This document shows, one piece after another, positions 258-3,934 of a stretch of 64,000 nucleotides of DNA. The notes beneath the pieces are model-generated. The model was not told the origin of the DNA, made no database searches, and saw only the letters and a program-made list of their open reading frames with translations. Made by a program: the position numbers and the translations under genes. The stretch covers positions 1 to 64,000 of the forward strand of contig VGDZ01000005.1 of assembly GCA_016869515.1 (NCBI GenBank), read 5' to 3'. Each line of letters starts with the position of its first letter. Positions within the stretch are counted from its first letter, which is position 1. Source of the stretch: Alphaproteobacteria bacterium (lineage in GTDB: Bacteria; Pseudomonadota; Alphaproteobacteria; VGDZ01).

Positions 258-776
258 GTGATGCAGCAGCAGGGTTACAATCTTTCGCGACTGAAGATTC
301 TGGTCGTCGAGGACAACAAGAACATGCGCGTGATGATTCGCGCCATGCTCGAGGCCTTTGGCGTCAAGAACATACGCGAATGCGAGAACACCAAGGACGC
401 CTGGGAGCGCATACTCGAATTCGGTCCCGACATCATGATCCTGGACTGGATGCTGACGCCCGAGGACGGCATCGCCTTCGCCAAGCGCCTGCGCACCGCC
501 GAGGATAGCCCCAACCGCTTCCTGCCGATCGTCATGCTGACCGGCTACACCGAGACCCGGCACGTGATGGTGGCGCGCGACGCCGGCATCAACGAGTATC
601 TTGTCAAGCCGGTCTCGGGCCAGGCGCTGTACGGCCGCATCATCATGGCGATCGAGCATCCGCGGCCGTTCGTGCGCGCCAAAGGTTATTTTGGTCCCGA
701 CCGTCGCCGCCACAGGAAAAAGGACTATGATGGTCCCGAGCGGCGCAAGCCGGACGACAAGGACAAGGATGACTAA
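258..776 (+). CDS. CheY-like response regulator with GPDRR tail
   Basis: A 172-residue stand-alone receiver. Acidic residues at VVEDNKN, the phospho-acceptor Asp in ILDWML, the T in MLTGY and the lysine of LVKPVSG are all present, so it should be phosphorylatable. There is no DNA-binding output domain. After the receiver comes a basic tail with YFGPDRRR and YDGPERRK, a motif pair shared with the receiver two genes downstream. Start codon is GTG at 258 or the adjacent ATG at 261. It heads a compact plus-strand group (Hpt-like protein, second receiver, MoxR ATPase, VWA protein). The cognate kinase is not identifiable here. Confidence 0.88.
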   Translation: MMQQQGYNLSRLKILVVEDNKNMRVMIRAMLEAFGVKNIRECENTKDAWERILEFGPDIMILDWMLTPEDGIAFAKRLRTAEDSPNRFLPIVMLTGYTETRHVMVARDAGINEYLVKPVSGQALYGRIIMAIEHPRPFVRAKGYFGPDRRRHRKKDYDGPERRKPDDKDKDD

Positions 777-835: not shown

Positions 836-1306
836 ATGGCCAAGAAGCACGAAATCATCGAACCGCCGAACAAGCTGTCGGATCGGGTGTCGAAAGGCGG
901 CCCCAATCCGATGGACGCCATCGCCAAGGCCGAGGCCAAGCTGCAGGAAATGGCCAAGGACTACGGCCAGTGGCTGGAAAACGACCTCGAGCAGGTCTAC
1001 GCCGCCCTGGCCAAGGCCCGCGCCGGCGGCGCCGAACGGGCGGCTCACGTCAAGGCGCTGCATGGCGCCGCCTTCAACATCAAGGGCCAGGCCGGCACCT
1101 TCGGCAAGCCGCTGTTGTCGCGCATCTCGAAATCGCTGTGCAAGCTGATCGAGGAGCGCGCCGAGTTCACCGACGAGGACCTGACCGTGGCCGCGACTCA
1201 TGTCGACGCGCTCAAGGCGGCGGCTGCCGGTCAGTACCCCGACAAGCTGGGCGAACAGGTGGCGATGGGGCTCGAGGGCATCGTCTCGAAGCGGCTGACG
1301 GCCTGA
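836..1306 (+). CDS. Hpt-domain-like protein lacking the phospho-histidine
   Basis: A 156-residue, mostly helical protein whose centre reads AAFNIKGQAGTFGKPLL. This matches the histidine-phosphotransfer (Hpt) helix, where the usual pattern is H-x-I/L-K-G-Q-G-G-x-F-G. The position of the phosphorylated histidine is phenylalanine (codon TTC), while the K-G and the following Gly-rich segment are kept. The nearest His lies four residues upstream. It sits between two receivers, 59 bases after the first and 4 bases before the second, so it probably acts with them. Either it binds receivers without passing phosphate, or another residue is used. A GAGGG ribosome site precedes the ATG. Confidence 0.78.
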   Translation: MAKKHEIIEPPNKLSDRVSKGGPNPMDAIAKAEAKLQEMAKDYGQWLENDLEQVYAALAKARAGGAERAAHVKALHGAAFNIKGQAGTFGKPLLSRISKSLCKLIEERAEFTDEDLTVAATHVDALKAAAAGQYPDKLGEQVAMGLEGIVSKRLTA

Positions 1307-1310
1307 GGCG

Positions 1311-1880
1311 ATGGCCGAGCTCACGCCGGTCGCGGCCAAGCCTAAGCTTTTCTCGGATTTGCGGGTGCTGGTGATCGAGGACGATCGCCAGATGCGGCTG
1401 TTGTTCAAGACCATGCTCGAGACCATGAACATCCGCAACGTGTTCGAGGCGGTCGACGGTCATGGCGGGCTGCAGCTGATGATGAGCAACGTCATCGATG
1501 TCGTGATCTGCGACTTGACCATGCGGCCGATGGACGGCATCGAATTCACCACGCTGTTGCGCCGGGCGCAGAACAGCCCCAGCCGCTATTGCCCGGTGAT
1601 CATGGTCACCGGCAATGCCACCGCCGCCACCGTCGCCAAGGCACGCGACTGCGGCATCAACGAATTCGCCGCCAAGCCGGTGGCGCCGGGCACGCTCAAG
1701 GCCCGGATCGAAGCCGCCATCGCCCGCCCGCGCCCCTTCATCCAGTCGACCGATTACTTCGGGCCCGACCGCCGCCGCGTGGCGCGACCCTTCGATGGAG
1801 AGGACCGGCGCGAGAACGAACCCGAGGACGCGCCCGCGCCCAAGCCGGACCCGACTGCCGCCAAGCCCAAGACCGAGTGA
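1311..1880 (+). CDS. CheY-like response regulator with GPDRR tail (second copy)
   Basis: A 189-residue receiver. It has VIEDDRQ, the acceptor Asp in VICDLTM and the lysine of AAKPVAP, so the phosphorylation pocket is complete. As in the first receiver, the domain is followed by a charged tail containing YFGPDRRR and then FDGEDRRE, ending in a proline-rich stretch. There is no output domain. The gene starts 4 bases after the Hpt-like gene and lies 22 bases before the MoxR ATPase gene. The two receivers are clearly related but diverged, which suggests an old duplication with separate roles. Confidence 0.88.
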   Translation: MAELTPVAAKPKLFSDLRVLVIEDDRQMRLLFKTMLETMNIRNVFEAVDGHGGLQLMMSNVIDVVICDLTMRPMDGIEFTTLLRRAQNSPSRYCPVIMVTGNATAATVAKARDCGINEFAAKPVAPGTLKARIEAAIARPRPFIQSTDYFGPDRRRVARPFDGEDRRENEPEDAPAPKPDPTAAKPKTE

Positions 1881-1902: not shown

Positions 1903-2751
1903 ATGCGCTTTCAGGGTACCGATTCCTACGTCGCCACCGACGATCTGATGGTGGCGGTCAACGCCGCCATCACCTTGCAGCGGCCGCTTCTGGTCAAGGG
2001 CGAACCCGGCACCGGCAAGACCATGCTGGCGTTCGAGATCGCGCGCGCGCTGGGCAAGCCGCTGCTGCAATGGCACATCAAGTCGACCACCAAGGCTCAG
2101 CAGGGCCTCTACGAATACGACGCGGTGTCGCGGCTGCGCGATTCCCAGCTCGGCGACGAACGGGTCAAGGACATCCGCAACTACATCGCCCGCGGCAAGC
2201 TGTGGGAGGCGTTCGGCGCCGACGGTTCGGTGGTGCTGCTGATCGACGAGGTCGACAAGGCCGACATCGAATTCCCCAACGACCTGCTGCTCGAACTCGA
2301 CCGCATGGAGTTCCACGTCTACGAGACCCAGGAAACCGTCAAGGCCAAGCACCGGCCGATCGTGATCATCACCTCCAACAACGAGAAGGAGCTGCCCGAC
2401 GCCTTCCTGCGCCGCTGCTTCTTCCACTACATCCGCTTCCCCGACCGCGACACCATGCAGCGCATCGTCGCCGTCCACCATCCCGACATCCAGAAGACGC
2501 TGGTGCGCGAGGCGCTCAACGTGTTCTACGAGCTGCGCGAGGTGCCGGGGCTGAAGAAGAAGCCCTCGACCTCGGAGCTGCTGGACTGGATCAAGCTGCT
2601 GATGGCCGAAGACATCCCGCCCGAGGCGCTGCGTGCCAAGGACCAGAAGGTGGTGATTCCGCCCCTGGCCGGGGCGCTGTTGAAGAACGAGCAGGACGTG
2701 CATCTGTTCGAGCGGCTGGCCTTCCTGGCCAAGCGCGAACGCGGCAACTGA
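1903..2751 (+). CDS. MoxR-family AAA+ ATPase
   Basis: A 282-residue MoxR-type ATPase with Walker A GEPGTGKTM near residue 35, Walker B VVLLIDEVDKAD and the sensor region TSNNEKELPDAFLRRCF. Such ATPases act as chaperone-like remodelers for metalloenzymes or surface complexes, together with a VWA partner. The partner gene follows after 7 bases. The ORF track extends this frame back to 1615 inside the receiver gene; the start chosen is the ATG at 1903, where the protein begins MRFQGTDSY and the family homology starts. The substrate of this pair is unknown. Confidence 0.92.
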   Translation: MRFQGTDSYVATDDLMVAVNAAITLQRPLLVKGEPGTGKTMLAFEIARALGKPLLQWHIKSTTKAQQGLYEYDAVSRLRDSQLGDERVKDIRNYIARGKLWEAFGADGSVVLLIDEVDKADIEFPNDLLLELDRMEFHVYETQETVKAKHRPIVIITSNNEKELPDAFLRRCFFHYIRFPDRDTMQRIVAVHHPDIQKTLVREALNVFYELREVPGLKKKPSTSELLDWIKLLMAEDIPPEALRAKDQKVVIPPLAGALLKNEQDVHLFERLAFLAKRERGN

Positions 2752-2758
2752 GCCGGCG

Positions 2759-3934
2759 ATGTTCGTCAACTTCTTCCTCGAACTGAAGAAGGCCAAGGTG
2801 CCGGTCACCTTGCGCGAATACCTCACCCTGCTCGAAGCCATGAAGCAGGGCATGGCCGAGTACGAGGTCGAGAAGTTCTACTATTTGTCGCGCGCGGCGC
2901 TGGTCAAGGACGAGAAGAACTTCGACAAGTTCGACCGCGTCTTCGGCCAGGTGTTCAAGGGCCTGGAAGGCAGCGGCGAAGCGGTGGTCGAGATTCCCGA
3001 GGAATGGCTGCGCAAGCTGGCCGAAAAGACCCTGAGCGAGGAGGAAAAGGCGCTGATCCAGTCGCTGGGCGGCTGGGAAAAGCTGATGGAGACGCTGAAG
3101 AAGCGGCTGGAGGAGCAGAAGGGCCGTCATCAGGGCGGCAACAAGTGGATCGGCACCGCCGGCACTTCGCCCTTCGGCGCCTATGGCTACAATCCCGAGG
3201 GCGTGCGCATCGGCCAGGACAAGTCGCGCAACCGCCGCGCCGTCAAGGTGTGGGACAAGCGCGAATACAAGAACCTCGACGACGACGTCGTGCTGGGCAC
3301 GCGCAACATCAAGGTGGCGCTGCGCCGGCTGCGGCAGCTGATCCGCCAGGGCGAGGCCGACGAACTCGACCTGCCCGAGACCATCCGCTCGACCGCCGAC
3401 AATGCCGGCTGGATCGACATCGTCATGCGCCCGCAGCGCCGCAACAAGGTCAAGGTGCTGCTGTTCCTCGACATCGGCGGCTCGATGGACGACCACGTCC
3501 GCGCCTGCGAGGAACTGTTCTCGGCGGCGCGCGGCGAACTCAAGCACCTCGAGCATTTCTACTTCCACAACTGCCTTTACGAAAAGGTGTGGAAGGACAA
3601 CCGTCGCCGCTACACCGAGACCACGCCGACCTGGCAGGTGCTGCACACCTACGGCCACGACTATCGCGTCGTCTTCGTCGGCGACGCCACCATGAGCCCC
3701 TACGAGATCGTCTATCCCGGCGGCTCGGTCGAGCACTGGAACGAGGAAGCGGGGCAAGTCTGGTTGCAGCGCGTGACCCAGATCTACCAGAAGGCGATCT
3801 GGCTGAACCCGGTGCCCGAGCAGCACTGGCAATACACGCCCTCGGTCCAGATCGTCCGCCAGATCATGGGCGAGCGGATGTATCCGCTGACGCTCGAGGG
3901 CCTGACCGGGGCGATGCGCGAATTGGCGCGATGA
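2759..3934 (+). CDS. VWA domain protein, CoxE-like
   Basis: A 391-residue cytosolic protein with a helical N-terminal half and a C-terminal von Willebrand A domain. The metal-site motif reads LFLDIGGSMD, so the usual DxSxS has become DxGxS, as is common in this CoxE-like group. There is no signal peptide. MoxR and VWA proteins form functional pairs, and here the genes are 7 bases apart. The last bases overlap the cysQ start (ATGA). The role is inferred to be assembly or activation of a partner complex that is not encoded nearby. Confidence 0.9.
   Translation: MFVNFFLELKKAKVPVTLREYLTLLEAMKQGMAEYEVEKFYYLSRAALVKDEKNFDKFDRVFGQVFKGLEGSGEAVVEIPEEWLRKLAEKTLSEEEKALIQSLGGWEKLMETLKKRLEEQKGRHQGGNKWIGTAGTSPFGAYGYNPEGVRIGQDKSRNRRAVKVWDKREYKNLDDDVVLGTRNIKVALRRLRQLIRQGEADELDLPETIRSTADNAGWIDIVMRPQRRNKVKVLLFLDIGGSMDDHVRACEELFSAARGELKHLEHFYFHNCLYEKVWKDNRRRYTETTPTWQVLHTYGHDYRVVFVGDATMSPYEIVYPGGSVEHWNEEAGQVWLQRVTQIYQKAIWLNPVPEQHWQYTPSVQIVRQIMGERMYPLTLEGLTGAMRELAR

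Follow-up and report, generated by a model that had tools for sequence, protein, structure and literature searches.

An Hpt-like protein in which phenylalanine (Phe80) replaces the phosphorylated histidine is encoded between two receivers in an alphaproteobacterial genome, within the 64,000-nucleotide stretch of DNA analyzed here (the window). On balance, we favor the view that it is a pseudo-Hpt, i.e., that it carries no phosphate at the canonical site and that, rather than acting as a relay, it would most likely bind the co-encoded receivers, REC1 and REC2, in a phosphorylation-sensitive manner.

Results

The gene belongs to a same-strand cluster that encodes, in order, a receiver, the Hpt-like protein, a second receiver, a MoxR-type ATPase, and a CoxE-type VWA protein, with gaps of 59, 4, 22, and 7 bases. 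The features referred to below are as follows (methods of identification in parentheses):

258..776, + strand: REC1, single-domain receiver with a YFGPDRRR tail and an intact acceptor, Asp63 (444-446); the usual upstream partner of the Hpt family (profile match, alignment)
836..1306, + strand: Hpt-like (CheA-P1-like) protein of 156 amino acids, with Phe80 at the phospho-His position (ORF, Pfam, AlphaFold2, Foldseek, phmmer)
1073..1075, + strand: TTC codon of Phe80, at the phospho-His position (paralog alignment, phmmer)
1199..1201, + strand: CAT codon of His122, conserved family-wide, in a different helix from Phe80 and probably structural (family alignment)
1311..1880, + strand: REC2, second receiver of the REC1 class, with an intact acceptor, Asp68 (1512-1514); 40% identical to REC1 (profile match, alignment)
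1903..2751, + strand: MoxR-type AAA+ ATPase, next gene of the presumed operon; the closest NCBIfam model is MadB, below cut-off (profile match)
2759..3934, + strand: CoxE-like VWA-domain protein, last gene of the presumed operon (profile match)

When the Hpt-like protein was compared with PDB sequences using phmmer, the segment AAFNIKGQAGTFG aligned with AAHSIKGGAGTFG of CheA P1, placing Phe80 on the phospho-His, which we take to be His48 of CheA. In alignments with paralogs from the same genome, and with homologs, the column occupied by Phe80 contains His. Both comparisons bear out the initial annotation, which had read the codon at the histidine position as TTC (Phe). No one-base error can account for Phe80, since two or three changes separate TTC from the His codons CAC and CAT. 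The Pfam Hpt domain (PF01627), which is characterized by a phosphorylatable His followed by xxKG, matched residues 39-128 (E = 0.001, 19.7 bits). Because this is below the curated gathering score of 24.6, we regard the protein as a diverged member. With respect to that motif, the His is replaced by Phe80, whereas the Lys at H+3 (K83) and the Gly at H+4 (G84) are retained, the latter pair having also been recognized initially.

AlphaFold2, using a two-row alignment as input, predicted an Hpt-like, up-down helical bundle (mean pLDDT 80.7; 63 to 81 across the five models), with Phe80 lying within the helix formed by residues 68-88. The top Foldseek matches to this model in the PDB were CheA P1 domains, alone and complexed with CheY (1i5n, 8c5v, 2lp4, 3kyi, 3kyj), all with a probability of 1.00 and TM scores of 0.54-0.75, although the E-values were modest (0.025-0.3). 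Judged from the predicted model, the window protein is an Hpt/CheA-P1-type four-helix protein. The earlier suggestion that the fold is intact while canonical phosphotransfer is lost is thus well supported by the sequence and the model.

REC1 and REC2 both retain the acceptor Asp, the acidic pair, the Thr, and the Lys, confirming that the Hpt-like gene lies between two receivers that keep their Asp (Asp63 and Asp68). The presence of receivers tightly spaced on both sides, and on the same strand, is unusual; elsewhere, a both-sided arrangement was found only at one locus (L179), where it is less tight. The order REC1-Hpt-REC2 upstream of MoxR/CoxE was not conserved among 40 MoxR/CoxE loci examined.

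Some other features of these loci were also observed. An Hpt gene of the family described below lies within about 2 kb of a MoxR/CoxE pair not only in the window but also in three other families, i.e., at L111 (genome G055), L091 (G041), and L095 (G313). This is more than a rough calculation would predict by chance (about 0.5), in a comparison that was made post hoc. The Hpt of L111 is also a non-His form (Asn). At L095, inspection by eye revealed a flagellin-like gene (about 2280-3104, - strand) between the MoxR and Hpt genes, with ClpS- and ClpA-like genes just past it. Also by eye, the start of a lipoprotein-like ORF, encoding a signal peptide with LAAC, was seen in the window at about 1-170 on the - strand; it is divergent from the receiver gene and truncated by the contig end. 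A literature search for MadB/MadC returned no paper.

The alphaproteobacterial receiver-Hpt pair family was defined in the present analysis. Its Hpt members are mostly stand-alone proteins of about 165 amino acids, and the window protein, a diverged member, has all of the family features, i.e., W46, KGQ, FG, THVDA/AHVDA, and a neighboring receiver with a YFGPDRRR tail. In a sample of 385 genomes from the class, 136 contained members (E <= 1e-5). When the whole phylum was sampled, 26 of the 27 genomes with a match belonged to the same class, and the family is therefore essentially confined to it.

Among 111 domains, one of which was unscorable, the residue at the site was His in 92, Leu in 6, Phe in 4, Arg in 4, Trp in 2, Asn in 1, and Gln in 1, so that 18 of 110 scorable domains were non-His. 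Phe occurs in the window, in both genomes of the small-genome genus f20, and in the MAG K_Offshore_80m_m2_191, and Leu in both f22 genomes. Within genus g175 (family f93), Trp was present in nine of nine orthologs, and there were separate Phe and Leu groups; the latter two are sisters (support 99), indicating that one non-His residue was exchanged for another without a return to His. A Lys or Arg at H+3 was found in all 29 non-His members examined, and a Gly at H+4 in 28 of the 29. At least seven more members are encoded in the genome containing the window; the two receiver-Hpt fusions of its contig C148 have Arg at the site, and the others (five) have His. When all 84,980 species were searched with a DNA pattern encoding the motif with Phe at the site, four matches were obtained, of which one (L119, in the MAG already mentioned) was a true relative; the other three were unrelated proteins. 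Scanning GTDB contigs with the window protein as sole query revealed no relative. Rather than being a single oddity, as initially supposed, the Phe site represents one case of substitution across a wider family, in which the reverse case exists too.

A receiver of a single class was encoded next to the Hpt on the same strand, or was fused to it, for 62 of the 92 members with His and 15 of the 19 remaining ones. These are single-domain receivers with the YFGPDRRR tail, often with a second GPxRR after it; no mention of the FGPDRR motif was found in the literature searched. Beside non-His Hpts the receiver Asp was kept in 13 of 15 scorable cases, and the two exceptions represent one Glu-bearing protein counted twice, a fusion with an Arg Hpt from the same genome as the window. 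No receiver of the YFGPDRRR class adjoins the Phe members of f20 or most of the sampled Trp group, and receiver binding may therefore not be general. In the reverse case, a clade of eleven pairs (L042, L044, L067, L121, L123, L130, L135, L141, L147, L194, and L195) has receivers with Asn at the acceptor position (NWQMxPxDG) and Hpts that keep the His. From this clade and the non-His Hpts, it follows that a receiver and an Hpt remain paired even where one or the other lacks the residue needed for transfer between them.

Two variants of the pairs were noted separately. Locus L184 (G000:C148), in the genome containing the window, encodes two receiver-Hpt fusions in tandem. Both have Arg in place of the His, and the second, which also has Glu at the receiver acceptor position, is possibly a constitutive mimic. 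At eight loci (L023, L025, L028, L124, L169, L174, L177, and L180) the receivers end in C-terminal peptides such as LSQAEVEALLNG and LSSSDIDALM, which presumably resemble the LSQxEIDALL peptide of FliM/FliN; four of these eight receivers are paired with a non-His Hpt.

Pairwise dN/dS ratios within ortholog groups, estimated by the Nei-Gojobori method, were 0.13-0.36 for non-His groups versus 0.08-0.30 for His groups. Together with lineage-wide conservation, these ratios, which were obtained with groups other than that of the window gene, indicate that the non-His proteins are maintained rather than decaying. No other genome belongs to the same family or order as that containing the window, and the nearest homolog of the Hpt-like gene is 36-37% identical, the selection figures coming from other lineages. 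The best tree contained ten changes between His and non-His, although well-supported branches force only two. In AU tests, a single origin of the Phe members was not rejected (p = 0.17), and nor, at the 5% level, was a single origin of all non-His members (p = 0.077). Many independent losses of His are, on the sequences available, likely but not proven.

Discussion

If the Phe80 protein is a pseudo-Hpt, kinases or catalytic Hpts whose genes lie elsewhere would still phosphorylate REC1 and REC2 on Asp. For these receivers the Phe80 protein would serve as partner or output, or it would block the docking site of a catalytic Hpt; no phosphate would be relayed through it. We infer the binding, its dependence on phosphorylation, and any link to the MoxR/CoxE pair. 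The receiver-docking face of the protein has probably been kept. In the yeast Hpt protein Ypd1, large substitutions at H+4 nearly abolish phosphotransfer while weakening receiver binding only modestly, a small residue at this position being required for the correct arrangement of the active site of the partner receiver (PMC6341664). From these data, the Gly kept at H+4 hints at a constrained contact with a receiver active site, which is not the same as proof of docking. Loss of transfer is supported by the His-less Hpt domains of Pseudomonas aeruginosa ChpA, which were not phosphorylated in vitro and whose function is unknown (PMC10782961). The proposal in the initial annotation of a receiver-binding scaffold or inhibitor stands as a putative role in so far as it concerns binding, since it fits the usual receiver neighbor, the kept K-G, and the maintenance of His-less forms elsewhere; the protein may be an output partner, a scaffold, or an antagonist.

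Might the protein nevertheless be a relay, with phosphate carried by another residue (His122, His76, or His71)? An atypical Hpt without the HxxKG motif, HmrB, has been proposed in Caulobacter (PMC11481889), and His122, conserved in 95 of the 101 members with the phospho-His and in 26 of the 29 without it, could take part in chemistry not yet suspected. However, it is just as well conserved in members that retain the canonical His, and its helical spacing with V118, A125, and A129 is of the core type, so that it is probably structural. As to the others, His76 lies one helical turn ahead of Phe80 and is usually replaced by Phe or Tyr in relatives, while His71 is variable, and neither takes the place of His80 in the alignment. 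Another conserved His at the active position, an outcome that the initial annotation had envisaged, was therefore not found, and we consider a relay highly improbable. Equally little credence can be given to the idea of a decaying copy, i.e., an Hpt gene that died recently and serves no function. The long branch and the low Pfam score speak for such a copy, but the ORF is intact and is preceded by a ribosome-binding-like AGAGGG ahead of its ATG, the G+C contents of its codon positions (0.67, 0.42, and 0.90) resemble those of neighboring genes, the spacing within the cluster is tight, the family motif is kept, and other non-His members are under purifying selection.

A further explanation is that the protein is a competitive inhibitor that docks, not on the flanking receivers, but on hybrid-kinase receivers used by catalytic Hpt paralogs encoded elsewhere in the genome. 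This is how AHP6 acts in plants (PMC7402358), and the five family members with His in the same genome could be the paralogs in question. However, the flanking receivers are the obvious partners within the window, and in the f22 and f20 genomes sampled the non-His form was the only family member found, which excludes competition with catalytic family paralogs as its role there. We therefore regard competition of this type as rather unlikely.

Returning to the pseudo-Hpt interpretation, relatives without the phospho-His probably also act by binding a partner and not by passing on phosphate. A broader, and distinctly more tentative, proposal is that the receiver-Hpt pair is a widespread alphaproteobacterial module that stays conserved even when the phosphosite of one half or the other is lost (in the Hpt, His to Phe, Trp, Leu, Arg, or Asn; in the receiver, Asp to Asn). 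It might then represent a phosphorylation-gated binding switch that evolved from a phosphorelay and in which the Hpt fold serves as the output partner of the receiver, here perhaps feeding into the MoxR/CoxE machine. If the pair is indeed a binding switch, many alphaproteobacterial orphans labeled "Hpt domain-containing proteins" would need to be re-read, and automated tallies of phosphorelay components would be in error for such proteins. The non-His groups are also natural test cases for identifying Hpt surface residues that serve docking alone. Pseudo-kinases and pseudo-receivers are already well known in bacterial signaling, and no description of conserved stand-alone pseudo-Hpt proteins was found in the bacterial literature searched.

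How does the window protein compare with known systems? It shares with CheA P1 (PDB: 1i5n, 3kyj) both the fold and the motif A-A-x-x-I-K-G-x-A-G-T-F-G, but differs from CheA in having Phe in place of the phospho-His, and no kinase or regulatory domains. The ChpA domains are likewise bacterial Hpt domains without His, although they lie inside a CheA-type kinase rather than standing alone beside receivers. Osp of Rhodobacter sphaeroides is another alphaproteobacterial two-component protein that is missing residues expected of a true member of its family, and it binds CckA directly and inhibits it (PMC9430884), although it is a receiver rather than an Hpt, and its Asp is still present. HmrX of Caulobacter crescentus (CC_1220) is a putative stand-alone Hpt that acts on motility and holdfast. 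It is similar in size to the window protein, judged by its residue numbers (His81, Ala152), and its nearest structural neighbors by AlphaFold and Foldseek are CheA P1 domains, largely the same PDB entries (PMC11481889). It has His81, in contrast to Phe80 of the window protein, and its length and Foldseek neighbors provide a lead, but only a lead, to a common family. Finally, Arabidopsis AHP6 is a pseudo-HPt in which the phospho-His is replaced by Asn, and which acts by binding without transferring phosphate (PMC7402358). Like the window protein it is a stand-alone Hpt fold that has lost the phospho-His, but it is a plant protein with Asn rather than Phe at the site, it competes with catalytic AHPs for kinases, and it has no operon of co-encoded receivers.
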